Below the pieces are notes generated by a model. The model was not told the origin of the DNA and did no database searches. It saw only the letters and a list, made by a program, of their open reading frames with translations. From Rhizobium sp. Q54 (lineage in GTDB: Bacteria > Pseudomonadota > Alphaproteobacteria > ATCC43930 > CGMCC-115725): DNA of 41,144 nucleotides. The stretch covers positions 1 to 41,144 of the forward strand of contig CAMATN010000032.1 of NCBI GenBank assembly GCA_945861155.1, given 5' to 3'. A program made the position numbers and the translations under genes. This document shows, piece by piece, positions 4,348 to 33,115 of the stretch. Within the stretch, counting starts at the first letter, position 1. Every line of letters starts with the position of its first letter.

Positions 4348-5177
4348 AGCCAACCACCATTCTTTACGCTGCGCTCGGGGCGATCGGCCTCGCCGCTGCC
4401 ATTGCAGTACCGGTGGCGCTTTACCGCTCCGGCTCGGCAGGGGTCCCGCTCTGGACTGCGGTGGCAAGTCCGGGACCGCTCTCCGCCGCGCACGAGTTCC
4501 TCGGCGCAGAGTGCAAATCATGCCACACGCCGGCCCGCGGGGTGGAAGCGGCCGCTTGCCTCACCTGCCACATTACCGCAGCCCCAGAGTTGGTGACGAA
4601 GCCCTCTACCGCCTTTCACGCGAACATCGCCGAATGTGCCGGTTGTCATGTGGAGCACCAGGGTCGCGATCGCCGCCCGGTCAACATGGACCACGCGGTG
4701 CTCGCCACTGTGGGTCATACCCGGGTTGCCGAAGCCGGGGTCAATGGCCCGTCGGCGGGTGACGCTCGCTTACGGCACTCCCTGATGCGCCTGGAGGCCC
4801 TGCTCGCTGGTAGCCGAGCGGACCTGTTCGGCGGCTCCCTGAAACCGCGGCCATTGCCGGCCGACACCCGCGCCACCCTCGACTGCGCGGGTTGCCACGC
4901 CAACCGCGATCCGCATCGCACCCTGTTCGGCCGCGACTGCCAGAGCTGCCATAACGTCGATGCGTGGAAGATCGCCACCTTCAGGCACCCATCGCCCCGC
5001 TCGCAGGACTGCGTGCAGTGCCATCAAGCCCCGCCAAGCCACTACATGATGCATTTTGAGATGATGGACCGGACGATCACCGGCCAAACCAATGCTCGCG
5101 TCGAGCAGTGCTTCCTGTGCCACCAGACCGACGCGTGGAATAACATCCGCGGCGTCGGTTGGTACAAGCACCATTGA
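4335..5177 (+). CDS. Membrane-anchored heptaheme cytochrome c
   Basis: A 280-residue protein with GTG start at 4335, overlapping the previous gene by 13 bases, which implies coupling. Residues about 8-29 form an N-terminal anchor (TILYAALGAIGLAAAIAVPV). Seven CxxCH motifs follow: CKSCH, CLTCH, CAGCH, CAGCH, CQSCH, CVQCH and CFLCH, each binding one c-type heme in the periplasm. The layout resembles cytochrome c3/c7-like or NapC-linked multiheme proteins that pass electrons to terminal reductases or outside the cell. As the last gene of the run it would be the periplasmic end of a chain beginning with the FAD/[2Fe-2S] fusion. The acceptor cannot be told from sequence. Confidence 0.8.
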   Translation: MAAIKPTTILYAALGAIGLAAAIAVPVALYRSGSAGVPLWTAVASPGPLSAAHEFLGAECKSCHTPARGVEAAACLTCHITAAPELVTKPSTAFHANIAECAGCHVEHQGRDRRPVNMDHAVLATVGHTRVAEAGVNGPSAGDARLRHSLMRLEALLAGSRADLFGGSLKPRPLPADTRATLDCAGCHANRDPHRTLFGRDCQSCHNVDAWKIATFRHPSPRSQDCVQCHQAPPSHYMMHFEMMDRTITGQTNARVEQCFLCHQTDAWNNIRGVGWYKHH

Positions 5178-5252
5178 TTCTCGTGAATTCCACTCGGCCT
5201 TCGGCGCCGGTGCTAACCCGCCTCAACGTCGACGCTTCGGCGGGCTGACTCC

Positions 5253-6140
5253 TTACTCCGCTGACAGGTGCGCGGGCGCGGGCCCGCGGGCCGGGAGCGC
5301 ATGGGAGAGCGGCGCCAGACGCCAGCCTTTGACCAGGCCGTAAATCGCCGGGATGACCACAAGGGTCAGCACCGTCGAGGAGAGCATGCCGCCGATCATC
5401 GGCACGGCGATCCGCTGCATGAGCTCGGAGCCGGTACCGTGGCTCCACAGGATCGGAAGCAGCCCGCCCATGATGGCGGTGACCGTCATCATCTTCGGGC
5501 GCACGCGCTCCACGGCTCCGGCCATGATGGCCTCCCTCAGGTCCTCGCGCGTGAAGGCGCGGCCCTCGGCCGCGCACCGCGCGCGCCGCTCCGAGAGCGC
5601 GCTGTCGAGATAGATCAGCATGACGACGCCGGTCTCGGCCGCCACACCGGCCAGCGCGATGAATCCTACCGCCACCGCGACGCTGAGATTGAAGCCCTTG
5701 AACCACATCAGCCCGACGCCGCCGACCAGGGAGAACGGCACCGACAGCATCACGATCAGCGTCTCGGTCAGCCGCCCGAAATTCAAATACAGCAGCACGA
5801 GGATGATCACGAGGGTGACCGGCACGACGACCTGAAGTCGCACTCTGGCGCGCTCGATGGTACTCGAACTGCCCGCTCCACGCCAGGCGGTAGCCGGGCG
5901 GGATCTGCACCTGGGCGGGCAACCGCGCGCTGCGCCTCGGCGACGTAGCCGCCGATATCGCGCTCGTGCATGTCGACGTAGATGTAATTGACGAGCTGGG
6001 CGTTCTCGGTGCGGATCATCGGCGGCCCCCTGGGGGTGAGCTGCACCCCTGCCACCTGGCCCAGCGGCACCGCGGGCCCGGCTGGGGCCTGCACGAGGAT
6101 TTGGCGCGCGATGTCCTGGGGCTCGCTGCGCAAGGCTCGC
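5253..6140 (-). pseudogene. CusA/CzcA-type RND efflux pump, decayed C-terminal part
   Basis: Three reading frames together give the C-terminal third of a heavy-metal RND pump. From upstream: frame one reads LGQVAGVQLTPRGPPMIRTE and VNYIYVDMHERDIGGYVAEA. Near 5915-5925 the frame shifts to QVQIPPGYRLAWSGQFEY. Near 5857-5863 it shifts again to VRLQVVVPVTLVIILVLLYL, and from there it runs on, including GFIALAGVAAETGVVMLIYL, to a normal stop at 5253. The N-terminal two thirds are absent: homology stops near 6140, about 140 bases before the integrase gene. Such pumps export Cu(I)/Ag(I) or Zn/Co/Cd across the envelope. The convergent operon to the left has Met-rich proteins, so a copper or silver theme is plausible. 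The two shifts could be sequence errors, but the missing N-terminus cannot. Confidence 0.8.
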
Positions 6141-6278
6141 CGACTTATATTAGATGATGGTTTCCGGAAGCGGCGACGGCAAAGTACGCCGGGGCCATTT
6201 GCCGTATAGGAAGATGTGGGCACGGCCAGTTGTTGCCTCCCAGGTGCTCGAATTCCATCGCCACCGCCACTTGACGGA

Positions 6279-7565
6279 TCAGCGCGCAATGGGGACCACG
6301 TTAGACGGTTCGGCGAGTCCGAGCGTGCCGAAGGCGGTTCGCACTGTGTCGGACACATAGCCGGGCGATAGGTGCCCGTAATGCTTCTCAACCATACGGG
6401 TGTCGCTATGGCCCAGCTGAGCCGCGACCACCGCGAGCGGCACGTTGCGCATCGAAAGGCGGCTCGCATAGGTGTGGCGTAGCCCGTGGAAATTCACTGT
6501 CGGGTCAATCTTGGCTACGGCACAGGCGGTGGCAAGCGGGCGCTGCTGATCGGATTTGCCCCAAGGCCTTCCGTTGCCGCGCAGGAACATGCGGGCGCTG
6601 CCCGGCCGTCCAGCGGCGAGCCCTGCGAAAAGATCGCGTCCTTCCTGCGTCAGCACGACATGACGCGGTTTCCCGCTTTTGCTGGTGCGCACTCGCACCG
6701 TTCCAGCATCGGTATTGAAATCATCGACGATCATGGCCGTCAGTTCACCGTAGCGACACCCGGTCAAGAGGGCAGCCGTCACAAGCACGCGGAAATCGGG
6801 CGGGCAGGCATTTGTCAGCCGCCGCGATTCATCATCCGACAGGTACCGCAGGCGGGCCGCATCGGCTTCGCGGAACCCGCGCACCGTGCGCCACGCGTCA
6901 TCGCTGGCGCAGCGCCCTTCCCGGTGCGCATGGTTGAGGGTCGCCTTCAAGATCGTCAGCACCCGGTTTGTAGTCGAGCGGCGCTGGCGCACGGCTTCGG
7001 GGCTGGCGTCGGCCTCCCGGTGCTTCGCTGCCGCGCCGGCCTTGGTGCGCAGCCGCGGGGGCGTCTCGGCGATCTTCTGATGCCAAGCGACGATGCGCAT
7101 CTTTGTCAGCCGGTCGAGCGGCACGCCGCCGAGTTCCGGGACAATCCAGGCCGCTGCGGACCAATCGAGGCGATCGATCGCCTTGCCACCGCGGCGCTGG
7201 TAATCGGCGCGGTAATCGGCGAGCGCGTCGGCGACGGTGTAGGGGCCGTCATGCGGCACGAAATCGCCGGCCGCCTCCCGCGCCCTGCGCTGGAACCACG
7301 CGCGCGCCCGCTCTTGCGCTTGCGCGAAGCTGTAGACACTGAGGCCGTCCGCGTCGCGCGCATCGTCGGCGGCGCCGAGCGCTTCAAGGTGCCGCTTGCC
7401 GTCCGCATCGCGGAACTTGGCAATCCAGGTGCCGCCCTTGGCGCCGCGGCGATAGCCGAGCGCGCATCCTCCCGAAATCACCGTCCAATAAGGCTCGCGG
7501 CGTTCGGCGAGCCGGGAGCGGGCGGAGCGGGTGTCGATCTTCGCGTTGCGGACGCTACGGGCCAT
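6279..7565 (-). CDS. Tyrosine recombinase (phage/island integrase)
   Basis: A 428-residue site-specific integrase. The N-terminal 80 residues are an Arm-type DNA-binding region (TWIAKFRDADGKRH), then a SAM-like core-binding domain, then the catalytic domain with Arg in LLTGCRYGEL, the HGLRHTYASRL box, a later His in LGHSD and the nucleophile Tyr in VEKHYGHLSP, so it looks intact. The gene begins 158 bases from a tRNA-Glu 3' fragment, the expected attachment site, and reads away from it. That places it at the right end of an element extending leftwards. It would join and excise DNA at the tRNA-Glu anticodon loop. Its start at 7565 is an ATG with an AAGG a short way upstream. Confidence 0.9.
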   Translation of the reverse strand: MARSVRNAKIDTRSARSRLAERREPYWTVISGGCALGYRRGAKGGTWIAKFRDADGKRHLEALGAADDARDADGLSVYSFAQAQERARAWFQRRAREAAGDFVPHDGPYTVADALADYRADYQRRGGKAIDRLDWSAAAWIVPELGGVPLDRLTKMRIVAWHQKIAETPPRLRTKAGAAAKHREADASPEAVRQRRSTTNRVLTILKATLNHAHREGRCASDDAWRTVRGFREADAARLRYLSDDESRRLTNACPPDFRVLVTAALLTGCRYGELTAMIVDDFNTDAGTVRVRTSKSGKPRHVVLTQEGRDLFAGLAAGRPGSARMFLRGNGRPWGKSDQQRPLATACAVAKIDPTVNFHGLRHTYASRLSMRNVPLAVVAAQLGHSDTRMVEKHYGHLSPGYVSDTVRTAFGTLGLAEPSNVVPIAR

Positions 7566-7722
7566 GGGTGCCGCCTTTTCCCCGGGTCAGAACGTACGGC
7601 AATTATACGGCACGGATGTAGCGGGACAAGGGCGGATTAGGGTGGACAGTGTTTTCGTTATATCAATGCTGTAAGCCGTCCACGCTTATCCGCTACCGTC
7701 CTGAAAATGGTACTTTGCCCCT

Positions 7723-7766
7723 CTCTCACGGCGGCAACACCGGTTCGAATCCGGTAGGGGACGCCA
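7723..7766 (+). other. Attachment site: 3' part of tRNA-Glu (CTC anticodon)
   Basis: The 44 bases match the 3' half of a tRNA-Glu: anticodon loop CTCTCAC with anticodon CTC at 7725-7727, stem strand GGCGG, T-arm ACCGG-TTCGAAT-CCGGT, acceptor strand AGGGGAC, discriminator G and an encoded CCA. The 5' half is missing: bases before 7723 neither form the anticodon stem nor give the GTCCCCT acceptor strand. Fragments that start in the anticodon loop are classic attR ends made by tyrosine integrases. The orientation says the element lies to the left and chromosome or other DNA to the right. No second copy was seen in the window. Confidence 0.8.
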
Positions 7767-7924
7767 ACAAATTCAATGTCTTGCGGTCTAACCGCCGGTT
7801 TCTTCCCGAACTTTTCCCGAATATACGTGGGTGGAAACCGGCGGACAGCAGAAGATTTTCGGGGGCCGCGATTAACGCCTTTGTAGCTCCGCGACACCGA
7901 ATTCGCTGCGTCCAACAGAATGCA

Positions 7925-8085
7925 AAAGTGCGCGAAAAGTGCGCAGGACGCCGCGGACCCTGTCTTGGGAAATATCGGTACAGACCGGCCTGACCCTGCC
8001 GTCTCGTGCACCGCCGGACGCGAGCGCTTCGGCTCCATTCCGCATTTCGATGATCTCGCCCTACGAAGACCCGGACACAACGAGG
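7925..8085 (-). repeat. Relic copy 1 of an unidentified sequence
   Basis: This stretch is clearly similar to 10085-10262. Shared wording includes CGATTTCG- and CATTTCGATGATCT-type blocks, followed by ACGAAGACCC. On the minus strand both give a related peptide (GEIIEMRNGAEALAS here, GQIIEIQNRAEPLATAVREM in the other copy). Both are without a start and in broken frames. It is probably the tail of an unknown gene carried as a decayed duplicate next to mobile elements. Confidence 0.5.
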
Positions 8086-8177
8086 CCGGATGCCCCTCTG
8101 TTGCTGACGCGTCAAGTTGGCCGCCCTTTGTAGGGCGTCAATTGACCGCTTCCGTGGTGGTAGTTCGGCGTGTGGGG

Positions 8178-8206
8178 TTGTGGACAACGCACAGCGTTGT
8201 CCACAA
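8178..8206. repeat. Perfect 13-bp inverted repeat, hairpin in the ISNCY 3' region
   Basis: TTGTGGACAACGC and GCGTTGTCCACAA are perfect arms around a 3-base loop. It lies just past the 3' end of the ISNCY transposase relic and may be that element's terminator or a subterminal structure. The arms contain a sequence one base from a DnaA box (TTGTCCACA), but nothing else suggests an origin. Confidence 0.6.
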
Positions 8207-8224
8207 ATCCATCAGGCCGCTGCC

Positions 8225-9302
8225 GAAGCGGCTGTGGCAGCCAATTTGGCGTCATCGCAGAGCTTTCCCTCAGGATTGTAGTCCGCCAGGCGATGGGGGC
8301 CGTGGAAGACGGCCAGGCGTGTGTCTGGGTATTCATGCACCCGGACCGTGGCGCGCACGAAGTGCGGCCGAAGCGGGCTCGGCGGAAGCTGCAGGGTGAG
8401 GGTGCGCCATTTGACGGTGTTGTCGTTGCCGACACGACGCTCCTCCTGGATACACAGGATCGCACGGGCTTGGCCGGCGCCACCGGGCACGAAGGCGCTG
8501 CCAGCCTGTTCGGGCGCGATCGCGAAGGCGGCGTTGTGCTGCGGCAAGTAGCGCTCGGGCGATAAACCGGTTGGCCGCCTCGATCGTCGCGATGCCGGCC
8601 AGGCCCAGCTCCTTCGGCAGGCGGTCCTGCAGGGTGCGGAAGGCGCGCTCGGAGCGGCCGCGCGCCTCGGGCGAATAGGCCGCGATTTGGCGGATGCCGA
8701 GCTGCGCCAACGCCCGTCCGATTTGGGTGCGCAGCGTTTTCGAAACCGGCTCGCCGGCTTTGGGCGTATGAAAGTAATGGTTGCCTCGGTCGGTGTAGAG
8801 CTCGCAGAACAGCCCGTGTGTGTCGATCAACTCGGCCAGACCGCGAAAGCTCGACGCCGTGCCATCCTCTTCGACCAGGAAGGCCGGGTAGACCGCGCTC
8901 GTCGCGTCGTCCAGGGTAACCCACCAGATCGTATTGCCGCTCGTCCTCGGGCAGCCAGGCAAAGCGCGAGGCGTCCTGGTGCAGCATCATGCCGACCATC
9001 GGCCGGGGCGGCCGCTTCTTGCGGTGCGCCGAGCGCTTCGGCGCCGGCTTGACCAGACCAGCCCCGTGCAGCGACAGCCGGGTCACCGTGTAGCCGAGCT
9101 TGTAATTGTGCCGCTTCACCAGCTGCTCGTGAAAATGTTTCAGCGTGAAGCCGCCATAGCGTTCCTCATACAACCCCAGTATGCGCCGGCTCTCTCCCAC
9201 CGCCGCCCGGCGGCTCGCCGATCCGCCGATCGCGCAACCCCGCCGGACCCTCATCGCGCAACCGGTCGCGCCGGATGCCCCTCTACAAACCCCTCGGCGC
9301 AA
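8225..9302 (-). pseudogene. ISNCY-family transposase, multiply frameshifted
   Basis: A transposase with an rve-type integrase core, spread over at least three frames. The N-terminal part reads ILGLYEERYGGFTLKHFHEQ and KRPPRPMVGMMLHQDASRFA. The core follows in another frame (LDDATSAVYPAFLVEEDGTA, LFCELYTDRGNHYFHTPKAG, QIAAYSPEARGRSERAFRTL). The C-terminal part is in a third frame (LPQHNAAFAIAPEQAG, ILCIQEERRVGNDNTVKWRT). This order is that of ISNCY (ISDol1-like) transposases. The helix-turn-helix start is scrambled or missing near 9210-9302. At least three frame breaks make it inactive unless many are sequence errors. Confidence 0.8.
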
Positions 9303-9433
9303 CGTCTAAACTTGATATCAATGTCGTCGACGCCACGCATAACTAGTCTAAGTCTCGCTCGGCAGCGAATTAGAACTCACTCGCGAACCCGTTTGGGTCT
9401 CTCGGCCGTCGATAGCTTCCTGATGCGATAACG

Positions 9434-9480
9434 CATCTGTGGACAGACGATAATTCAATGAATCCGTCCGGGTACGGACG
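9434..9480. repeat. Pair of 7-2-7 palindromes, same family as the 12.6-13.3 kb array
   Basis: CATCTGT-GG-ACAGACG (9434-9449) and CGTCCGG-GT-ACGGACG (9465-9480) are each imperfect palindromes. GATAATT follows the first and GTTAATT the second. The same unit and the same GATAATT follow the pair at 10423-10461. The rest of 9303-9684 shows no gene. Confidence 0.65.
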
Positions 9481-9684
9481 TTAATTCCCGCCGAAAAATA
9501 CTTTTAAGACACTGATAAGCCGTGATTTTCGGCGCACAACTCAAGTCTCCGTAAAATTGTGCGCCTGCAACAGCCGGAGACCGTAAACGCCAGGATCACC
9601 TTGCGTCGCCAGTGACGGTATCACGCGATCGCTGAGTCGCCTGCGTCAAATGTATTTTGACGCTCGACCACGAATAGAGGATGA

Positions 9685-9927
9685 ATGCGAATGATCAAGA
9701 TAACGATCTTTTATCGAGAAAAAGGTATGTCTCCGACGTTTTTGCCAGACCAGCCCCATCTCGTCGCGGCTGAAAAAACATATGCACCGTATAAGGACGA
9801 TCCGCTAGTCAGATATATCTGCGTATGTTCCTACGACACTAAGCCTTGGTCTTGCAGTCCTGAGATGTCGTTCACGCTGGAGCAAGACGCCAACGGTAAA
9901 TGGCGCATCAAGGACAGATTGGTGTAA
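9685..9927 (+). CDS. Small hypothetical protein
   Basis: An 80-residue protein (MRMIKITIFYREKGMSPTFL at the start, ending LEQDANGKWRIKDRLV) with two CxC-like cysteines in YICVCSYD and one in WSCSPE. An AGAGG ribosome site precedes it, and a second Met at 9691 is equally possible. It lies between the two palindrome pairs in lower-GC DNA than the flanking chromosome. It resembles no family I can name. The mixed alpha/beta composition, without the Arg/Pro/Ala bias of shadow frames, suggests a real gene. Confidence 0.45.
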   Translation: MRMIKITIFYREKGMSPTFLPDQPHLVAAEKTYAPYKDDPLVRYICVCSYDTKPWSCSPEMSFTLEQDANGKWRIKDRLV

Positions 9928-10084
9928 AGCGGTTACATCACAGGGCGCCTGGAAAGATAGATCATGATGGTGGCTGGGCGGAGAAGGAGCAAGTCCGTGA
10001 CGAACTAGGCAGAAGGCTTGCCTACTCGGTCACGGAACTCTGCGAAGCAAACCGTGCCGCGATGCTGCTTCGGACCGTGCACAC

Positions 10085-10262
10085 GCTGGTGTCGGCGAAA
10101 GTCCGGCACAGGCGGGGCGATGGGGCGATTCGGACCTGTCTCGGGAAAACATCAGTGTAGACCCACCTCGCCTGCCATCTCGCGCACCGCCGTTGCCAGC
10201 GGTTCGGCTCTATTTTGGATTTCGATGATCTGCCCCACGAAGACCCAGACGACGCGGCAGCC
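10085..10262 (-). repeat. Relic copy 2 of the unidentified sequence at 7925-8085
   Basis: On the minus strand the least damaged frame reads VVWVFVGQIIEIQNRAEPLA and continues TAVREMAGEVGLH to a stop, without an evident start. It is the better copy of the pair. In the intervening DNA of 9928-10676 I see no gene apart from this relic and the palindrome pair at 10423-10461. Confidence 0.5.
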
Positions 10263-10422
10263 TTAAGCACAAGTTGGGCCCCATCATGCCCCACCTGGCC
10301 TCCGAGTGCGCGTGAATTTTGACCGGCCGACAACCTCGGCTAGCGCGCCAGCATCTGCGAGGCATGCGGCTGGTCGTCTATGTCGAGCCACCGCCGAAAT
10401 CCGCATCCGCCATGCCGAGAGG

Positions 10423-10461
10423 CGTCTGTGGACGGACGTCGCAATCGTCCGTCCACAGACG
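10423..10461. repeat. Inverted pair of 7-2-7 palindromes forming a 16-bp stem
   Basis: CGTCTGT-GG-ACGGACG (10423-10438) and CGTCCGT-CC-ACAGACG (10446-10461) are exact reverse complements of each other, separated by 7 bases, and each is itself a near-palindrome. The structure can fold as two small hairpins or one long one. It sits about 215 bases before the HTH gene and shares its unit with the array at 12567-13335, so it may be a binding or nicking site for the HTH or HUH protein. Confidence 0.75.
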
Positions 10462-10676
10462 ATAATTGTGTCTTCGTAAGCATCGTTAACGCGCTGATTA
10501 TACCTACGATTTCGCCAAAGAATTTCCAAGCCGTAAAATTTGCTCGATGCAGGGCAGTCGGACCAAAAGGCGGGACACTGAGAGACCCTCGCCTGCGGAC
10601 GGGATGGACGGCCCCTTGCGCCTAATGCCGATTTTCGAATTGACGGACTGGGTACACGGTCGCGGGGAGAACCTAG

Positions 10677-10904
10677 ATGCCAAATGTACAGGGTACTGAT
10701 GACAAAAAGCATGCGGGAAAACGCCTGCTTACGATACGAGAGTTTTGCCAACTCTACGGACGTAGCCGCAGTCGGACCTACGAGTTGTTGCGGTCCGGCG
10801 ACCTACCAGGCGTTAAGGAGGGTCGCTCTACCCTCATACCGTTGGATGCAGCGGAAGCTTGGGCGCGGAGCTTAAAGCCAGTGTGCTCATTCAATCCCGG
10901 ATGA
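10677..10904 (+). CDS. Helix-turn-helix DNA-binding protein (excisionase/MerR-like)
   Basis: A 75-residue protein with a winged-helix HTH_17-type fold: LLTIREFCQLYGRSRSRTYE is the recognition part and DLPGVKEGRSTLIPLDAAEA the usual wing and following helix. Such proteins act as excisionases or as small regulators in plasmids, prophages and integrative elements. It lies downstream of an inverted palindrome pair and 38 bases before a 248-aa gene on the same strand, so it probably controls that module. No strong ribosome site was found: GGGGAGAACCTAG precedes the start. Confidence 0.75.
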   Translation: MPNVQGTDDKKHAGKRLLTIREFCQLYGRSRSRTYELLRSGDLPGVKEGRSTLIPLDAAEAWARSLKPVCSFNPG

Positions 10905-10942
10905 GAAGGGACGACACCGAATATGTCAATAGGGAGAGTGAA

Positions 10943-11689
10943 ATGACCCAGAACTATGATACACCAATCACGATCGATAAAGGGCCAAGTCGGGCCAAAG
11001 ATCGGCGCGCGTTGCGCCAAAAAGTCCTACAACGGTTGAATATCGGGGATGATGAGCGCCAGATCGATTTGCTTGTACCTAGATATCTTCAGCGCGCACA
11101 AATTTCTGGACAGAAGGCTGCGAGCAGCAAAAACGAACCGGCAGACGTACGTAGATTCTTAGCAGACGCTCTGGCGCTGTTTTTGCTCGCCTCCGAGCCT
11201 CGATCCCGCGCGTCAAAACTCGAGGCCGCGCTGTACCCTCAACGCCCAATCAATAAACACGAACAGACGACGCTACTAGCGCTTGTCCTGAAAACGCTTG
11301 GCCCCTATTCCCGCGATGGGCGGCGCATGGTACACCGGGATAGTGTAGCGCTAGAGTTCATTGTTCATCTTGGCCTCGCGCCGGATGATTTACCGGCGTA
11401 TCTGGCAAAGCCCGGCCAAGGCATAGATAGCACCTATCGACGCGCGCAGAATTTTTTCAACGCACACAAGGCAGAATACCGGCAGAAGCATCAGCTCATC
11501 GTTGAACCGAAAGCTCAAGCTCAATTAGCGCGCCGAATGCCAGATACACGCATAGTCGGCCTGCTTGAGATGAGTGGTACGGGTTTCGTGATGACAAGCT
11601 GCGTAGTCGACCGGGCCACCGTTCGAGCGGTCGTGGAGCTCGTGAACCGCCTATCAAGAAACAAAAAAGTCTCCAAAATGGATACCTAA
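10943..11689 (+). CDS. Hypothetical protein of the HUH/palindrome module
   Basis: A 248-residue soluble protein starting MTQNYDTPITIDKGPSRAKD. The start at 10943 is preferred because GGGAGA lies 5 bases upstream; a longer frame from 10859 would overlap the HTH gene by 46 bases. The composition is Lys/Arg/Gln rich in the first third (RALRQKVLQRLN), helical in the middle (ADALALFLLASEPRSRASKL), and basic at the end (NRLSRNKKVSKMDT). I recognise no family. Position between the HTH gene and the HUH gene suggests an accessory DNA-binding or replication protein of the same element. Confidence 0.6.
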   Translation: MTQNYDTPITIDKGPSRAKDRRALRQKVLQRLNIGDDERQIDLLVPRYLQRAQISGQKAASSKNEPADVRRFLADALALFLLASEPRSRASKLEAALYPQRPINKHEQTTLLALVLKTLGPYSRDGRRMVHRDSVALEFIVHLGLAPDDLPAYLAKPGQGIDSTYRRAQNFFNAHKAEYRQKHQLIVEPKAQAQLARRMPDTRIVGLLEMSGTGFVMTSCVVDRATVRAVVELVNRLSRNKKVSKMDT

Positions 11690-11937
11690 TGCCATAGTCG
11701 AGCCCGATTCAGGGCGTCAACGGCGGGGGCAGCGGTGTCTATTCCAGCCTGGTCACGGCGAGGCTATATCGACACTCATCGAAATCACTTCTCGACCACA
11801 TCGCTGTTCTGAATTGGATGATGCGAGGTCAAGTAACATCAAACCCGCCAACATTAGCCTCAGAATTCGAGATGAGTCTTTCACTATAGGATGGTCTAGC
11901 ACCATGTAAAATAGGCGGACTCAATCGGGAGATACTT

Positions 11938-12429
11938 ATGAAGGAAGATGTCTGGTCAAACCTGCGGTATCAGTCCCGCCGGGAATATCGAGATGCGTTT
12001 GAGGGGTTCCTTAAGACGCTGGACGTGGATTTGTTCGCCACCCTGAGCTTTAGCCAGAACACGCGCTTGCAGCAAGCGCGGCCACTGCTCGGGCAATGGT
12101 TCGCGCGCTTGGACAACCACTATCTCGGTCGAGGTTGGACAAGATGGAGTTCCGACGAGAGAACCTTCGCTGTCGCCGTATCGGAAAACATCGACACGAA
12201 CCTGCACTACCACTGCCTGATGCGGCTGCCGGCCTGGGGTCGTACGCAGGCAATCGACGAAACCGCGGGCGCTTTGGATCGATACTGGCGTCGGCTGGCT
12301 TGGGGCGGAACTTGCGGTGTGGTGCTGATCTACGACCTGCCAACATTGGCGCGCTACATGTCCAAACAGCTGGTGCGCCCGGGCTACGAGCAACACTACC
12401 TGTTCGCAAGCGAGTTCCACGCCCACTGA
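11938..12429 (+). CDS. Short HUH-endonuclease-like protein (Rep/transposase type)
   Basis: A 163-residue protein with a good GGGAGA ribosome site 5 bases before the ATG. LFATLSFSQN corresponds to Rep motif 1, NLHYHCLMRLP gives the His-hydrophobic-His metal motif, and LARYMSKQLV, 58-60 residues later, fits the YxxK motif of rolling-circle initiators, with Tyr as the candidate nucleophile. HUH enzymes nick one strand at a hairpin or short origin and attach to the 5' end. At 163 residues it is near the size of the nuclease core alone, with no helicase domain. An array of palindromes begins 140-240 bases after its stop. The fold assignment rests on three motifs in the right order; its exact family (replication initiator, RAYT-like transposase or relaxase relative) is open. 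Confidence 0.6.
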   Translation: MKEDVWSNLRYQSRREYRDAFEGFLKTLDVDLFATLSFSQNTRLQQARPLLGQWFARLDNHYLGRGWTRWSSDERTFAVAVSENIDTNLHYHCLMRLPAWGRTQAIDETAGALDRYWRRLAWGGTCGVVLIYDLPTLARYMSKQLVRPGYEQHYLFASEFHAH

Positions 12430-12566
12430 GACGCAATACCGAACGGCGGCCAGGGTATGGAGCGCGGCCCGCGGGGTGCCGGCAGCCACGTTCTCAGCGA
12501 AAAAAATTCGCCCGCTCCGGCGATACCATAATTTGACTCGGTAAAGTGATGAAGCGTGCCGCGGCC

Positions 12567-13335
12567 GTCTGTGTTCCAGACTTCCGACAGCGCATGCGCG
12601 TGCCTCTGTTGAGGCCCCATCGCATAGGCACCAAATGCGCTGCGAGCCAACGCGCCGCAAGCGATTGGTGCTGTCCGTCCACGGACAGGTGCCCTTCCCA
12701 AAGTAGGAGAGCACAGTGGCTCGCTTTGGTCAAAAAGCCCAATTTTGTCCGTCCACGGACATTCCAATCATATGATACGGGAAGGAGCATTATTCTCCAC
12801 TGATCGGGTCAAAAGAAACAAATTTGCTACTTTGTCCGTGAAACAGACATTTAGGTGATAGCCAACATCGTGCTCGCTTTTGTCAAAAAGCCTAAGATTT
12901 GTCCGTTCACAGACATTCCAGCGACTTGATACCGGAAAATGATCCGGGTCAGCCACACCAAACCGACGACTTCGTCTGTAAGACAGACGTTCATTAGTCA
13001 GCGGCGCGTATCACCAAATCTCCCCAAATTTGTCTGCTCACGGACAATCCAACCTTCTCGAAGGGAAGAGTGCCGGCCAGTGGTCTGTTCCAAGAAGAAG
13101 AGATTAGCAACTTTGTCCCTTCCGTAAAGAAGGCTCAAATCTGTCTGCGAACGGGCATCCAATGTCTCTCGAACCGAACAATGTTAACTATTGTTTGGTT
13201 TTAGGGAAAGATCAGATCACGCACTTTGTCCGTGAGACGGACATCCCAGACCACAGGATATGCGAGGGTATGTCGTTCATTCAAAAATATCTGCGTGCGA
13301 TTTTGTCAGTGAGCCAGACCGTCTGTGGGCAGACA
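12567..13335. repeat. Array of largely alternating 7-2-7 and 7-3-7 imperfect palindromes
   Basis: Consensus TGTCCGT-spacer-ACGGACA. Two-base-spacer copies (A): 12672-12687, 12746-12761, 12900-12915, 13031-13046, 13142-13157, 13320-13335. Three-base-spacer copies (B): 12833-12849, 12973-12989, 13227-13243, with decayed ones at 13114-13130 and 13304-13320; GTCTG-CAGAC at 12567-12581 may be another. The order from 12746 is A B A B A B A B B A. A copies are mostly preceded by a CCCAATTT-like word and usually followed by ATTCCA-like sequence; B copies are preceded by GCNACTTT-like sequence. A longer unit containing TCAAAAAGCC recurs 153 bases apart. Copies differ in compensating positions, as conserved hairpins do. 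No gene longer than chance is visible in 12430-13464. It could be an iteron-type origin, a REP-like target array, or a run of structured RNA. Confidence 0.8.
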
Positions 13336-13464
13336 AATGTCTATTTCAAAAACACATACCAGGTTTGCGTCTGCGCTTGCTTTCGGATCACAAGTTTTTG
13401 TAGCAGCAGCTGAATTTGGTCTTGACTCTATTTTGCTCGTTGTATCTTCTAATGGTGTAGTGTG

Positions 13465-13632
13465 ATGGGTCCCGAAGGTGATGACCTTCCGACTATACGC
13501 ATGTTGGTGAAATTCAACGATGACGTTCCACGCGAATTGGCTCTCCAACTCAGAGGCGGCCGGAGATCGTTCGCTAGCTCTGCCGGTGCACTCGAGTTTG
13601 CGCTGTTCCTTTCGGAGGTGACGGTAGAATAG
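13465..13632 (+). CDS. Possible 55-aa small protein
   Basis: ATG GGT CCC GAA opens a 55-codon frame (MGPEGDDLPTIRMLVKFNDD, ending LFLSEVTVE) with balanced amino-acid composition. There is no convincing ribosome site. It lies between the palindrome array and the next hypothetical gene, on their strand. Overlapping minus-strand frames look less protein-like. It is reported because it is too short for most gene finders. Confidence 0.3.
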   Translation: MGPEGDDLPTIRMLVKFNDDVPRELALQLRGGRRSFASSAGALEFALFLSEVTVE

Positions 13633-13752
13633 CGAGGCAAAGAACTGTGGCGCTGGGACCAGTTGGCAACTCAGCCACGAAAGCGCCGGTCAGGCTTACT
13701 GCTGATTGACCGAGGCTCCCGTGGTACCTGAAATTCATAGAGGACGTTTGCT

Positions 13753-14160
13753 ATGCCCAAGAACAAGACGCTTACAGCAAAATTTGTCGCGAAAGTTCTT
13801 TCACTCTTAATGGGCGAGGTCGCTATTCTGCGCGCTGCGGAATATGCAAAGCACGGGCGACGCTTCGAGCACCACTTTCTTGAGGAGCTGCATGAGCGTT
13901 ACGTCACTCAAGCGGAAATCCATATAACACAAGGGTGGCTTCCCGAAGACACATTTCGCGAGTATGAAGATATTATGGCAGAGTTTACTTTAAGGGGATA
14001 TGTGCCGCAGCTCTCTCCGGAGCTACAACAAAAACAGGAAGAGTTTGTGTTTGAGGGACTCAAGCGTATAAGAAGTGATCCGACCTGCAAGCAGAACTTC
14101 ATCGATAATGTGGACAGACATTTACGCCATCGACACACATGGTTTGGAAAGCCCGATTAG
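13753..14160 (+). CDS. Hypothetical protein, helical
   Basis: A 135-residue protein starting MPKNKTLTAKFVAKVLSLLM with an AGAGGA ribosome site 8 bases upstream. The sequence is mostly amphipathic helix, rich in Glu, His, Arg and Gln (EYAKHGRRFEHHFLEELHER, QQKQEEFVFEGLKRIRSD), with no membrane segment or signal. No family was recognised. Codon and base use is lower in GC than the chromosomal parts of the window, as for the other orphan genes from 9.6 to 16.9 kb, so it likely arrived with mobile DNA. Confidence 0.6.
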   Translation: MPKNKTLTAKFVAKVLSLLMGEVAILRAAEYAKHGRRFEHHFLEELHERYVTQAEIHITQGWLPEDTFREYEDIMAEFTLRGYVPQLSPELQQKQEEFVFEGLKRIRSDPTCKQNFIDNVDRHLRHRHTWFGKPD

Positions 14161-14233
14161 GCGTATTTGACCCATCGGCGGTGGGGCTTATCCCGTTGTT
14201 CCAGGTTGACCTAAACAGGGTACTCTACCCTGG

Positions 14234-14395
14234 ATGAGCCACCGGATGGTGGCCATGGCGGGGCAATCGATGGCCAGGGCTCGATCACTCACAGAATTCC
14301 AGGAAGCGTTTCCGGACGAGGCGAGTTGCGCGGCGTTCTTGTTCGAACGGCGCTGGGCAGGCGGTTTCGTCTGCCCTCGGTGTGGCACGGACCGC
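14234..14395 (+). pseudogene. IS1595-family transposase, N-terminal fragment
   Basis: About 54 residues ending in the zinc ribbon start of IS1595 transposases: [20 protein letters not shown] then [13 protein letters not shown]. The second half of the ribbon and the whole DDE domain are missing. After CPRCGTD the DNA becomes the antisense of a cupin gene, although the frame stays open for 367 codons to 15337. So this is a truncated element joined to foreign DNA, not a 367-residue protein. Confidence 0.75.
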
Positions 14396-14758
14396 AATGG
14401 TGACCTCTTGGCGGTCCACCAAGTCGAACTGCCACAGCTTGACGAACAGCACGCATCCGGGCGCGGAGCTGGGTGTGTGACGCGAAGTCGGCGGGTTGCG
14501 GACGTAGTGCCGGCGGGGGAGTCACCGTGCTCGTCCTGGAACACGCCATCGAGCACGCAAGAATTCTTCGCCGCCCCCGTGCGTGTGCGGCGAGAACTGG
14601 CTGCCGGGCGCGTACCGGGCGATCGAGATGGCTCGCGCTACTTCGTCGCCGATGCGGTCCAGCATGCGCCGGTCGACCCCTGCCATCGCCGATGGCACCC
14701 AGGGGAGCTGGGCGGCGTGGACCACTGCGCGCTGGGAAAAATCCGCGTTGATTTCCAT
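14394..14758 (-). pseudogene. ChrR-like cupin protein, frameshifted and truncated
   Basis: The start [20 protein letters not shown] has GGGAAG at the right distance upstream. The cupin metal site begins [18 protein letters not shown]. After EEFL the frame shifts (extra base near 14556) to [15 protein letters not shown], then shifts back (missing base near 14512) to [18 protein letters not shown] and [18 protein letters not shown]. This is the anti-sigma ChrR/cupin_7 family, which binds Zn or Fe and often acts in oxidative stress or as a detoxifying enzyme. Its 3' end is lost at the IS1595 fragment. Two opposite single-base shifts within 45 bases may be sequence errors. Confidence 0.7.
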
Positions 14759-14779
14759 CGCTACTTCCCGCTGACAATC

Positions 14780-15337
14780 AGGCCAATTGAGCCACAGTTT
14801 ACCAAAAGCCTTTCTTGGTATCGACTGCAGAGGGAAGCTTCGCCCAGTTTGTTCGTCGTCGTGTACGCTGCCGGTCTGCTCGCTCGCCACTACGGCATTC
14901 TTCCTTGGACAGCACCCGAACTCGCGCGGTCAGTCATCACTTGTGAGCTGGCGCATCGACAATTCGTTGCTGATACCCAGGTCGCGCTCGATCCGATCGC
15001 CGCGGTGCGCGCCTACATCGTCGATCATCTGCCGCGTTTCCGAAGGGTGCCCGACGCCAGCATCACCGCCGCTGAGTTTCCCACAATCCCAGGCTTCATC
15101 TACACCGACCAGCACGGCGTTACCGATTACCTGATTTCCCAGCCGGTGTTCGGCCGGCAGTTCGCGCACCTCAATGGCCGCCGCGTGCTACAGCCGTTGG
15201 ACGGAGCCGGCTTAGTAGTGCGAATGGGAAATAAATATGTCAGCAAAGCACCGATCCGCAGTTCTGCATCAAGTGGCCGTGAGTACGTCTACCGAATTAG
15301 GCCTCCATCCCTGCGCGAAAGGTCCTGCGGTCGCTAA
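14780..15337 (+). pseudogene. C-terminal remnant of a DUF927-type primase/helicase-like protein
   Basis: From about 14845 the frame reads [20 protein letters not shown], then RAYIVDHLPRF, then TDYLISQPVFGRQFAHLNGR, and it ends near REYVYRIRPPSLRERSCGR. This pattern (AAGxLAxxYGI, helical linker, YLI...VF...F, basic end with YVYRI) is the C-terminal tail of DUF927 proteins, which are found in plasmids, prophages and islands next to replication genes. The ATPase core is absent and the left border is unclear. It supports a lost replicon or prophage in this region. Confidence 0.45.
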
Positions 15338-15579
15338 GCGAACGCAATCCTTCTGGCACCGTTCTACCAGAATTCCGCCGGCCCCAAGATAATTCATCTA
15401 TAGTGTAAAGTAATAATGCCGGTGAACGCACGCTACGGATCGCGTGCTGTGTCGAGCAAAACAGGACAAACGGTGCAAACATGAACATTGGGTAGCGGCC
15501 TTCCGCCAATCTAAATTCTTGGTTTTGTGCCGTGGACTCCGCGTGCGTCGACTGCCCACTCCAAAAAGAGAAGCTTACA

Positions 15580-16398
15580 ATGGGATTTATGAATCTGACT
15601 TATGCGCAGCTAGAGAATCTACCTGTATCGAGCCGAAATTCATCTAGCGAACCAAAGCTGCTAACGATTGAAAGTCTCGATGCGTGTCGAGCGGAAGACT
15701 ATCGCCGTGCTGAAGGGTTCCACGCATTTGCAACGATGTACGAGGTCTGGGACGACGAAAGCGTCAAGTTCAGCCCTTATTGGACACACAAACTCTTGGG
15801 CAAGTGGGCGTCTGGCGAGGGAGATGAACCGGCCGTTGCGTCGGCGACGTATTTACGAAATCGGCGGCTCGCGTTGCTAACGGCGATACTTGACCTGATT
15901 CAGAGTACTGATGATCAGCGCATTGGGTTGGTATCGATCAAGTGTGTCGACTGGACCCGTGCTCTAATAATCCATGCGCGATGGCGGTTCAATGAAATTC
16001 GAGAATGCATCGTGAGCTGGCTTAGCCCCGTTTCTGAGGTACAGGGGTTTTTATTTCTGTACATGCTACCGATGTTCAATCCACGAAAAGGTTATTTCGA
16101 AATTGTATGCCGTGGCGTCTGTGGTGGCGAAAAGTTGGTGCGACTTCAGAGGCGGCAAGAGCTATGCCGAGGCGCGCGTAGCCCCGAGGTGTTCGTTCAC
16201 GACAGGGCCCGCCTAATGAACCAGATTACGAATGTCATACCGAACCCAGTGCTTTATGGGAACCAAACAGACAGCATTCCTGCGGAAATAGCGAATGGTA
16301 TGTATCTGCTTCAAATGTCGGTGTGTTCGATTGCCGACCTTTGTATGTTCGACGGCCTCTGTCTTCACAAAGGTCGGTTCGTTGTTGTTGATAGCTGA
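15580..16398 (+). CDS. Hypothetical protein, unknown family
   Basis: A 272-residue soluble protein. The start at 15580 (MGFMNLTYAQLENLPVSSRN) is chosen because AAGAGAAG lies about 8 bases upstream; a Met at 15532 has none. Notable stretches are EVWDDESVKFSPYWTHKLLG, a hydrophobic strand-rich block around SEVQGFLFLYMLPMFNP, and several Cys (EIVCRGVCGGEK). No catalytic motif stands out and no family was recognised. It ends just before a perfect 16-bp hairpin, likely its terminator. Low GC and isolation suggest cargo of a mobile element. Confidence 0.6.
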   Translation: MGFMNLTYAQLENLPVSSRNSSSEPKLLTIESLDACRAEDYRRAEGFHAFATMYEVWDDESVKFSPYWTHKLLGKWASGEGDEPAVASATYLRNRRLALLTAILDLIQSTDDQRIGLVSIKCVDWTRALIIHARWRFNEIRECIVSWLSPVSEVQGFLFLYMLPMFNPRKGYFEIVCRGVCGGEKLVRLQRRQELCRGARSPEVFVHDRARLMNQITNVIPNPVLYGNQTDSIPAEIANGMYLLQMSVCSIADLCMFDGLCLHKGRFVVVDS

Positions 16399-16408
16399 AT
16401 GCAGAAGT

Positions 16409-16443
16409 TCACAGTGAATCGGCTATAAGCCGATTCACTGTGA
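16409..16443. terminator. Perfect 16-bp inverted repeat after the 272-aa orphan gene
   Basis: TCACAGTGAATCGGCT and AGCCGATTCACTGTGA flank a 3-base loop, starting 11 bases after the stop codon. It probably ends transcription of the upstream gene, though no T run follows; the symmetry is also that of a protein-binding site. Confidence 0.6.
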
Positions 16444-16578
16444 GCATCAGCACGGAGTCTACTGATTAGATAAATCGGCTTTCGCACTAGGTCCCTAATT
16501 CTAGGCTTGAAAAAGGTGACACCGCGACATCGCGAAATTTGAACCGATCACAGATCACATTAACACGAGGGAAAATAC

Positions 16579-16896
16579 ATGCCCTATGAGCTCAACAATC
16601 CTCTCGCTGGGAGAATTCAGAGCGTAATCAACGATCAGGAACTTCCGGAGGTGCTAGTGGCGTTATTAACGGTCACCGTAAATGCGCTCCATCAGACTGA
16701 AGGGAGGGAGTTTCGGGAGAAGCTTGAGGCGGCATACATAAAAGCTCTCAAGTATGTGTCCGCTGTTGAAGAGCAACTTCAAGCCTCCACATCGCTGTTC
16801 GAGGACGCTGGCGACTGCGAGAAGCTACATCTCGGAGAGATGTATCGGAAGGTGATGAATCGACTTTTCGGCGGCCATCACGAGCCAGACCTGTGA
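16579..16896 (+). CDS. Small hypothetical protein, helical
   Basis: A 105-residue protein starting MPYELNNPLAGRIQSVINDQ with GAGGG 7 bases before the ATG. It is almost entirely amphipathic helix (REKLEAAYIKALKYVSAVEE) and acidic, with no membrane segment. It has no recognised family. A perfect hairpin follows 16 bases after the stop. It is the last of the lower-GC orphan genes on this strand. Size and charge would fit a small regulator or antitoxin-like partner, but that is a guess. Confidence 0.6.
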   Translation: MPYELNNPLAGRIQSVINDQELPEVLVALLTVTVNALHQTEGREFREKLEAAYIKALKYVSAVEEQLQASTSLFEDAGDCEKLHLGEMYRKVMNRLFGGHHEPDL

Positions 16897-16912
16897 ACGC
16901 TTCGTGAAGCGG

Positions 16913-16937
16913 CCGATGCCATCCCAGATGGCATCGG
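16913..16937. terminator. 11-bp perfect hairpin after the 105-aa gene
   Basis: CCGATGCCATC and GATGGCATCGG enclose a 3-base loop 16 bases past the stop codon, followed by a short pyrimidine-rich stretch. It is a probable transcription terminator for the plus-strand gene. Confidence 0.6.
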
Positions 16938-17181
16938 TCCGACAGCTTTCGTCCAGTCTCCTACAGTTCTTGGTACACGACCCGCGGTAGCGCGCTGCCG
17001 CCGTCAGCCGGTTTCCATTTTCGGCCGGCAGTAGTGGGTCGGCGATCAGCCGATCGACCGTCTCGATCAGTCGCGGGCCGCAGGCATCGGCGTGATGCGT
17101 AACGGGATCGATGATCCCGGTGAAGACCGAGGCCGAGAGGCTGCAGACGGAGCAAGGGCGGCGGATTCCCGGCTTCTCGCG
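16938..17181. other. Unassigned stretch between terminator and methyltransferase relic
   Basis: No convincing gene. The most protein-like reading is on the minus strand around 17000-17165 (PCSVCSLSASVFTGIIDPVT, then HHADACGPRLIETVDRLIAD). It has no good start codon and a stop shortly upstream, so at best it is a decayed fragment of an unknown gene. Confidence 0.25.
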
Positions 17182-31890: not shown

Positions 31891-32050
31891 CGGCGCAGGC
31901 CTCGGTATGCCCTCCCAGCGCCGCCGTCCGACACAGCTCGATGGCGCTCATCACCCGCCGCTCGACGCGGCCCAGGTGACCATCATGCCGGCGGCGATAC
32001 GCGTCGCCGTGGCGGCGGAAGACATCCGCCACTTCCAGGCCGGTCGACAT
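31885..32050 (-). pseudogene. IS91-family transposase, N-terminal fragment
   Basis: The start MSTGLEVADVFRRHGDAYRR continues to VMSAIELCRTAALGGHTEAC and stops matching at CAAC, just inside the zinc-binding region; the Y2 HUH nuclease domain is absent. It begins 12 bases after the (repaired) recombinase stop. The sequence overlaps the end of the SDR fragment on the other strand for about 10 bases, marking the recombination joint. Confidence 0.75.
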
Positions 32051-32062
32051 GGTGCCGCCGGA

Positions 32063-32946
32063 TCAGGCTGGCGGCACGACCTCCAGCGTCAGCCGGTCGA
32101 GCGGGCTCTGGGTCCCTCGGATAAGGCCGTTCGAGACCCGCGTATAGCGCGCCGTGCTCGACAGGTTGGCGTGACCCAAGAGGACCCCGGCTTTCGCCGG
32201 GGCAGGCTTTGGATGATCCGGATGTCGGTGCCGCCTTCCAGCAGATGCGTGGCGAAGCTGTGCCGCAGCGTATGCACCGTCGCCCGCTTGGCCAGGCCGG
32301 CCGCGGCACAGGCCGAGCGGCAGGCCGCATGCAGCACCTGGACATCGGTCGGCTTGGTCGAGCCCCGGCCGGGGAACAGCCAGTGCTGTGGCCGCGCCAG
32401 ACGCCAGTAGGTGCGCAGGATGCCGAGCAGCTGCGCCGACAGCATGACGTAGCGGTCCTTGCCGCCCTTGCCGTGCTCGACCCGGATAACCATCCGGCCG
32501 CTGTCGATATCGGCAAGCTTGAGGCCGACCGTCTCGGACGCGCGCAGCCCCGCCGCGTAGGCCGTCGTCAGCGCGGCACGCGTCTTCAGGCTGGGCACCG
32601 CTTCAAGAAACCGCACCACCTCGTCGGCGCTCAGCACCACCGGCAGCTTGCGCGGCTGCCGTGCGTACGGGATGCGCTCTGGCACCTCGCCATGACCAAG
32701 CGTGACGCCGTAAAAGAACCGCAGCGCACAGACCGTCTGGTTCAGCGCTGGCCACGAGATCCCGGTCGCGACCAGATGGACTTGGAAGGCTCGAACATCC
32801 TCCAGACCAAGACGATCCGGCGAGCGAACGAAATACCGGCTGAACTTCGAGACCGCGTGGACGTAGGATCGTTGCGTTGCCGGCGACAAATTGCGGACCG
32901 TCATGTCCTCGATCATGCGGCGGCGCAGAGGGCTCATCTCGGCCAT
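32063..32946 (-). pseudogene. IS91-associated tyrosine recombinase, broken by a 23-bp palindromic insert
   Basis: Start 32946 (MAEMSPLRRRMIEDMTVRNL) has AGGAG upstream. The core-binding part reads ALNQTVCALRFFYGVTLGH; the catalytic Arg is in YAAGLRASETVGLKL, and TVHTLRHSFATHLLEGGTDI has the His-Arg box. After IRIIQ the reading frame is interrupted by SLPRRKPGSSW, which comes from an inserted palindrome. The original continuation, LLGHANLSSTARYTRVSNGL, with the last His and the catalytic Tyr, follows in another frame to a stop at 32063. The insert length (23 bases) is not a multiple of three, so the recombinase lacks its nucleophile. Confidence 0.85.
32185..32208. repeat. Small palindromic element inserted in the recombinase gene
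   Basis: CCCCGGC-TTTC-GCCGGGG (32185-32202) is a perfect 7-bp stem with a 4-base loop, followed by CAGGCT. Comparison with the normal IS91 recombinase shows 23 extra bases here. Sequences of this type (GACCCCGGCTTTCGCCGGGG) are abundant as REP-like repeats in alphaproteobacterial genomes, recalled from general knowledge. This copy lies within a coding region. Confidence 0.75.
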
Positions 32947-33115
32947 CGGGGGCTCCTGCCTTGAGGGTTGGGCTTCGACACCCACAATCCTCTCAGACAG
33001 GAGACCTTCCTCTAACCGCTCACCCAAATCCCGCGACAGCGGGTTCGTTCAATCCACTTTTCCACAGCTTCGTCTGCGGGTCGATGGATCGTTCAAAGCA
33101 TTATGACTTTGGTTA

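Follow-up and report, generated by a model that had tools for sequence, protein, structure and literature searches.

An HUH-type gene, a predicted partner and a locally confined palindrome family on a low-GC island of Rhizobium sp. Q54

Short palindromes that stand beside a gene for an HUH-type protein are known from repetitive extragenic palindromic (REP) sequences and REP-associated tyrosine transposases (RAYTs), systems that combine, according to PMC6006769 and PMC3733652, a Y1 transposase with dispersed palindrome copies usually bearing a GT[AG]G foot. The CGTC REPs, which occur mostly in alphaproteobacteria, are reported in PMC3733652 without a dedicated transposase; they are repeated through genomes and have stems of 8–9 bp starting A-T after a CGTC or TGTC tag. 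Here we describe a locus in a 41,144-base contig of Rhizobium sp. Q54 (CAMATN010000032.1, analysed whole and called the window; the source genome comprises 4.88 Mb in 226 contigs and is 97% complete), in which the gene for a 163-amino-acid HUH-type protein is flanked by palindromes, as in RAYT/REP systems, and follows genes for a helix-turn-helix (HTH) protein and a 248-amino-acid protein (Table 1). An earlier examination of the letters of this DNA (the sequence-only reading) had proposed that an HUH-like nuclease and the palindromes form one unit, a candidate new mobile element or replicon, and had named RAYT/REP and IS200/IS605 systems as known parallels. We find the palindromes confined to the locus as far as searched, relatives of the HUH gene in mobile elements, and a predicted partner protein that recurs with it.

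At one mismatch or fewer the palindrome core, GTCYGT-N2/3-ACRGAC, was present at 13 sites, all starting within 9435–13321 and none elsewhere in the window; at two mismatches or fewer there were 15 sites at 9400–13400 and 2 elsewhere in the 41 kb, so that the earlier count of about 15 local palindromes holds. Exact matches to the stricter TGTCCGTN1-4ACGGACA numbered three in the window, where 100 shuffles gave 0.00. Within 5.9 kb around the HUH gene, the most numerous palindrome family counted 12 members (two of these by-catch); 20 first-order Markov resamplings, the kind used also for the palindrome families of the relatives, averaged 2.45 and never exceeded 4. Throughout the genome, the 7-2-7 form TGTCCGTNNACGGACA gave nine sites at two mismatches or fewer (four in the array behind the HUH gene, five scattered), the same number as its reversed control; its three sites at 0–1 mismatch were all in the array, and the 7-3-7 form TGTCYGTNNNACRGACA at one mismatch or fewer was found in the array only. 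Because these low-mismatch sites lie nowhere else, the palindromes are confined to this locus within the reach of the search, which was genome-wide for the TG...CA-ended forms; the upstream copies at 9434, 9465, 10423 and 10446 are C...G-ended and were not included in those searches. One of the two inverted pairs noted earlier, that at 10423–10461, is a true one, and the other, at 9434–9480, turned out to be two imperfect palindromes in tandem.

The array consists of about four diverged tandem units of 115–155 bp, each pairing a 7-2-7 palindrome (A) with a 7-3-7 one (B), with hairpin feet that mostly read ATTT or ACTT. When four of the six A copies (12672 and 13320 omitted) and four of the five B copies (the degenerate 13114 omitted) were compared without gaps, the arms were 74–86% identical, against 23–58% for 10-bp flank blocks. 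Arms that are better kept than their flanks suggest that the palindromes in the array are under selection, with insertions and deletions adding to the flank difference. The 706-nucleotide array also folds better than 20 shuffles on both strands (z −3.8 and −5.0), as would be expected of any palindrome array.

The locus resembles RAYT and TnpA_REP (IS200/IS605) systems in its small Y1-type HUH protein and in the palindromes beside the gene, but differs from them in having Y-x-x-K at the tyrosine and palindromes at one locus only, as far as searched, without a GTAG tag. No Y1 transposase, RAYT or IS200 family appeared among the Pfam matches at E ≤ 1 of the 163-amino-acid protein and of those relatives that were scanned. 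Hairpins tagged GTAG, GTGG and CGTC were no denser near the genes of its family (0.19, 0.44 and 0.57 per kb) than further away (0.23, 0.46 and 0.68 per kb). With no dispersed copies of the forms searched and no GTAG tag, this is not a REP/RAYT system, and a relationship to RAYT/REP or IS200 elements finds no support. With the CGTC REPs, as described in PMC3733652, the locus shares short palindromes and the bacterial class; it differs in its 7-bp stem, in a TGTC that lies inside the stem and in copies at one locus. A strand-biased integrative element (PMC9345347) was also considered as a comparison and set aside, being said there not to encode an HUH endonuclease.

In the 163-amino-acid protein the motif HYH is followed by YMSK, both present as first noticed and in the order stated for Rep proteins. 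Its match to the Pfam family REP_ORF2-G2P (PF23343, replication-associated protein ORF2/G2P) reached 15.9 bits against a gathering score of 27.8; NCBIfam and PHROG gave no match at E ≤ 1, and a single-sequence search of the genome_contigs, viral_contigs, plasmids and phages collections returned no close relative. Profile searches detected relatives in 7 genomes out of 385 from the class and in 8 out of 398 from the phylum; both figures include the source genome, and two of the phylum hits are long frames whose kinship is doubtful. In the family of G104, the alphaproteobacterium Brevundimonas halotolerans (Caulobacteraceae), 16 genomes out of 249 had a relative (E ≤ 1e-4, G104 included); the order of G334 added no new genome (1/18, G334 itself). 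Twenty-four related loci (L007, L008, L018–L022, L040–L042, L164 and L183–L195) were fetched, giving 25 proteins with that of the window; they came from the whole-genome searches, apart from one locus found in genome_contigs with protein A1 and one record found among plasmids with the L018 protein. This count leaves out G734 and G741 of the phylum search (inside long frames) and the weakest candidates of the G104 family search, G789, G850, G937 and G964:C4 (E 3e-6 to 9e-5); L006 (G056) was excluded as well, its match inside other open reading frames (ORFs) being put down to chance. No further relatives were obtained with the A1, L018 and L040 proteins in viral_contigs, with the L042 protein in plasmids or phages, or with the L185 HUH and partner proteins in plasmids.

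His90, Tyr140 and Lys143 are kept in all 25 aligned members and Glu83 and His92 in 24 each (His92 is replaced by Gly in L164), so that a Y-x-x-K with its tyrosine and lysine is present downstream of the HUH motif. REP_ORF2-G2P matched seven of eight scanned members at E ≤ 1 (best 1.4e-6) and three of five further members at E 0.002–0.02; NCBIfam had no name for any of the eight. Judged by these alignments, the protein belongs to a diverse HUH/Y1-type family. It shares with REP_ORF2-G2P proteins, which 7/8 members match, the HUH motif followed by Y-x-x-K, as well as a member (L041) near a Zot gene, and it differs in scoring below the gathering threshold, in its single short domain, and in a partner gene and palindrome array that were not found described in the literature searched.

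The 248-amino-acid protein is, by homology and gene adjacency, a conserved partner of the HUH protein, newly found here. When it was compared by phmmer with the ORFs of all fetched loci, it matched the ORF that adjoins the HUH gene in L193 (3.3e-6), and an iterated search added partner ORFs in L184 and L185. The profile of these four sequences then found ORFs in L190 (2e-4) and L186 (1.3e-3), each adjoining its own HUH gene, with the next ORF at 0.47. By hhalign L190 scored 91% and L186 17%, compared with at most 2.3% for 40 control ORFs; given the low value for L186, its ORF is a likely but not certain partner homologue. The HUH-partner pair is thus present in the window and 5 of the 24 relatives, in tandem in the window and L186, convergent in L190 and L193, and divergent in L184 and L185. 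Pfam, NCBIfam and PADLOC gave no significant match for the partner in the members scanned, and the 248-amino-acid protein had no match in plasmids or viral_contigs. Among the papers listed by searches of the open-licence PMC literature, none described the pair or the palindrome; subscription papers and preprints lay outside the range of the search.

Genes of the HUH family sit in mobile elements. Of the 24 loci fetched (5–16 kb; Table 1), at least 15 encode a site-specific recombinase somewhere along their length, a lower bound as the Pfam recombinase scan covered part of the loci. L020 and L021 are contigs of 5–6 kb with 99-base terminal repeats and hence probably circular plasmids, and the HUH gene of L041 lies near its Zot gene as in filamentous phages. 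The single-domain HUH-type proteins of this family therefore travel with mobile DNA, and a conserved partner together with a candidate recognition site makes their function directly testable.

Further features of these loci may be recorded in passing. The HUH member of L164 (4968–5429, Azospirillum sp. B510 plasmid pAB510d), in which the second His is Gly, lies near an integrase and tRNA-Phe. In L191 and L194 the HUH gene is accompanied by a tyrosine integrase and an AlpA-like gene. A small gene family, putatively DUF6641, occurs near HUH genes at four loci from different bacteria (L164 4119–4568, L007 9485–9874, L040 5693–6196 and L042 7165–7593). Around the HUH-partner pair, L184, L185 and L186 have in common a 190-amino-acid tyrosine recombinase, an XRE-like gene and a 110-amino-acid gene, a set that could possibly represent a new type of integrative element in the genus of G104.

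The B-type core of the window recurs at two of the partner loci, L184 holding GTCCGT-TAA-ACGGAC and L185 GTCTGT-TAA-ACAGAC, which differ by one compensated pair. The L185 palindrome separates the likely HUH start (ATG 6231) from the likely partner start (ATG 6323), at distances of 29 and 49 bp, and purine-rich sequence precedes both starts. These are the only two occurrences of GTCYGTN1-4ACRGAC in 293,730 bases of the 24 relatives, both by the HUH and partner starts, against a mean of 0.25 in 60 first-order Markov shuffles, none of which (0/60) reached two. Among 368 genomes of the bacterial family, GTCYGTTAAACRGAC was present in two, with one copy each and only at the L184 and L185 loci; the pattern was derived from these very sites, and the result therefore speaks for confinement and is not an independent discovery. 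Sites with up to two mismatches are slightly denser near the HUH genes of the relatives (10, or 0.24 per kb) than far from them (45, or 0.18 per kb). A second near-match in L184 and L185 (9582 and 10091) sits at the start of a conserved gene and was not used.

Our preferred reading, held tentatively, is that of a small mobile element whose palindromes are recognised by the HUH protein or its partner and have here been amplified into an origin-like array. The island would be such an element or a remnant of one, and the 163-amino-acid HUH/Y1 protein its initiator, with Tyr140 cutting one strand to begin rolling-circle-type copying or transfer and the 248-amino-acid partner acting together with it. 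The palindromes, with half-sites GTCYGT and ACRGAC 2–3 bp apart, would be the module's own recognition site: those before the HTH and partner genes, and those by the divergent starts in two relatives, may let the module control its own expression, and the tandem array behind the HUH gene may be an amplified origin-like region for loading or nicking. Many Rep initiators bind both their own promoter and their origin. The locus can be compared with the origins of rolling-circle plasmids and integrative elements, where an initiator-type gene likewise stands beside iterated candidate sites, with sites also near promoters; the difference is that in the window binding of the palindromes by the HUH protein or the partner, nicking there by the HUH protein, the origin, the nick site and any circular form are all putative. 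What stands of the mobile unit first proposed is the catalytic-type residues kept across the family, the mobile contexts, the local confinement as far as searched and the core beside the pair in two genomes. Should the HUH protein act on these sites, they would represent a second and independent link between palindromes and an HUH nuclease, with a bearing on a question raised in PMC3733652, namely which enzymes handle REP-like repeats that have no transposase. A wider reading, which we consider doubtful, is that of an unrecognised class of small alphaproteobacterial integrative elements with a G2P-like Y1 HUH nuclease, an orphan partner and a private palindrome as common origin and operator, expandable into arrays: an analogue of REP/RAYT systems from a different HUH lineage that keeps its palindromes at home.

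A number of observations weigh against the preferred reading. In the structure prediction that the sequence-only reading had called for, the order of strands and helices in one model (predicted local distance difference test, pLDDT, 57; predicted template modelling score, pTM, 0.53) fits the order familiar from the HUH domain, but this AlphaFold model and a second one (pLDDT 49, pTM 0.43) are weak. Foldseek against the PDB ranked an unrelated GTPase first (E 0.17), the first 50 matches also including the ISHp608 TnpA transposase and adeno-associated virus Rep (E 0.2–0.4) and plant-virus and circovirus Reps (E 0.2–0.9); in a viral structure library some matches were named Rep or NS1 and most were unnamed, none at E ≤ 0.001; a second aligner gave its best Z (5.0) to unrelated proteins, and that its list shows no HUH entries near the top carries no weight either way; and profiles of the HUH and partner families found no significant relative among solved structures. 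The models being too weak, we infer the HUH fold from the conserved motif residues. Within the island of the window, no gene was recognised as a recombinase. The tree does not group the HUH proteins of the partner-bearing relatives with that of the window. L020 and L021 also encode initiators of the Rep_3 or RPA type, so the HUH protein is not the sole Rep there. The idea that arrays accompany this HUH gene family found no support, as none of the 24 relatives (stretches of 3.7–6.2 kb) has a comparable array: their largest palindrome families number 2–5 (first 11 loci) and 2–9 (other 13), against 12 in the window. L018 (4 against 3) and L021 (5 against 4) exceed their own shuffle maximum by one, with members that are scattered and partly unlike, and the family of nine in L192 is within its own shuffles (maximum 10). 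The palindromes at 4016–4206 of L021, where a frame looks HTH-like by eye, were not taken as an array.

The recurrence at L184 and L185 is also to be read with care. It was noticed after inspection, and the two are sister loci with common neighbours, so that the common palindrome amounts to about one independent event. The L184 palindrome counts as intergenic only with a partner start at GTG 6408 or further on, and in-frame starts exist also at 6057–6114, inside the HUH gene on the other strand. The core is absent from the remaining partner loci, L186, L190 and L193. Two of them, L186 and L190, do have different palindromes 8–32 bp ahead of the partner start, but a hand count puts palindromes of that strength at 30 over the 20.3 kb of these stretches, or about 1.5 per kb. 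Covariation between the arms of the window's palindromes is weak as well: 82 of 98 cells pair over all copies (p 0.047, column shuffle) and 58 of 70 in the array alone (p 0.33, column shuffle). At pair 5 the arms vary nearly independently (in 14 copies CG 4, CA 3, TA 3, TG 3 and AA 1), which is evidence for a protein that binds duplex DNA and against a strict hairpin.

The last point leads to an explanation that comes close to the preferred one and is nearly as likely: some dimeric regulator, which may be the AlpA-like HTH protein, the partner or an XRE-type repressor since lost, would bind the palindromes as duplex operators or as a partition-type cluster, and the HUH protein would be a neighbour that makes no contact with them. 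Arms that vary as two separately read half-sites would, and the position of the L185 palindrome between divergent gene starts, speak for it; so do similar palindromes in several copies in viral contigs fetched by pattern, for instance L147 (5) and L102 (3, beside genes that look XRE-type by eye), which suggest that phage regulators can use such sites. L147 and L156, both IMG/VR contigs, have several scattered TGTCCGTGCCACGGACA-type palindromes per locus, perhaps phage repressor operators. Yet the spacing in the array alternates regularly between 2 and 3 bp, as a single dimeric operator would not usually do, a group of about ten sites downstream of a gene would be strange for simple repression, and the core recurs at a homologous HUH-partner pair. 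That recurrence, together with arms kept while flanks drift and with members of the same palindrome family upstream of the HTH and partner genes, also makes it improbable that the array is a decayed tandem repeat, now functionless and by chance next to the HUH gene on an island with insertion-sequence pieces, even though its units drift apart along its length, some copies are broken (13114 and 13304), an IS1595-type transposase lies to the right and 60 relatives have no copy of the island. Least probable of all, and very much so, is a REP/RAYT-like origin in which the HUH protein spreads the palindromes as small non-autonomous elements: an HUH-type protein flanked by palindromes, some of them paired, does recall REPtrons as presented in PMC6006769, but the source genome has no dispersed copies of the forms searched, the relatives' form occurs once in each genome, and the protein and hairpin comparisons above gave neither a Y1 transposase match nor an enrichment of GTAG, GTGG or CGTC hairpins near the family genes.

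Table 1. Features of the locus (positions in the window) and related loci with a site-specific recombinase
Feature	Position or locus	Strand	Basis or remark
Reverse-strand frame	8112–9302	−	Without Pfam match
Imperfect 7-2-7 palindrome, first of tandem pair, right flank ATAATT	9434–9449		One mismatch to core
Imperfect 7-2-7 palindrome, second of tandem pair, right flank TTAATT	9465–9480		One mismatch to core
Inverted pair of 7-2-7 palindromes, 16-bp perfect arms, 7-nt spacer	10423–10461		215 bp from HTH gene
HTH_17/excisionase-type (AlpA-like) DNA-binding protein, 75 amino acids, predicted	10677–10904	+	Pfam HTH_17 5.8e-10; TIGR01764 excise 1e-7
Predicted partner protein, 248 amino acids, outside known families	10943–11689	+	Homologues adjoin HUH genes in 5/24 related loci
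Single-domain HUH/Y1 endonuclease-like protein, 163 amino acids, H90-Y-H92 and Y140-MS-K143	11938–12429	+	Pfam REP_ORF2-G2P E 0.016 (below cut-off); residues kept in relatives
Outlying weak palindrome GTCTGT-GTT-CCAGAC	12567–12581		One mismatch to core
Palindrome array, about four tandem A+B units	12672–13335	+	Pattern search and copy comparison
Array 7-2-7 (A) copies	12672, 12746, 12900, 13031, 13142, 13320		
Array 7-3-7 (B) copies	12833, 12973, 13227, 13304; degenerate B at 13114		
Resolvase or Phage_integrase	L007, L008, L020, L021, L022, L040, L184, L191, L192, L194, L195		Pfam
Recombinase beside tRNA-Phe	L164		Annotation
Recombinase	L183, L185, L186		Similarity

The locus lies on a low-GC island: GC content is mostly 61–71% at 5,000–9,500 (a single 500-base block is at 58%) and 47–63%, mostly below 58%, at 9,500–17,000. 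An 80-amino-acid ORF is also inside the island. The HTH protein of the window had no tblastn match (E 1e-4) in the 24 related loci and is hence not a common part of the module. PADLOC gave, for the island proteins, only a weak match to this HTH protein; in Rfam nothing reached the gathering score within 9000–14500, and promoter and terminator scans gave no excess over shuffles. Neither the island DNA, the palindrome pattern nor the 248-amino-acid protein had a real copy among 60 near relatives (other genomes gave a match of 34 bp and a single palindrome, both put down to chance), and the island DNA had no match in plasmids.

On the right side of the low-GC island is the IS1595-type transposase (14234–15337, Pfam Zn_ribbon_IS1595). 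A perfect 16-bp inverted repeat with a 3-nucleotide loop (16409–16443) directly follows a 288-amino-acid ORF without Pfam match. A stretch of 120 bp is present in two copies, 10131–10250 and 7954–8076, which are 79% identical and possibly pieces of one old insertion sequence, the ORFs there having no Pfam match. Outside the island, the region 31895–33056 has about 75–81% identity to IS91-family and tyrosine-recombinase regions on plasmids of rhizobia and relatives.

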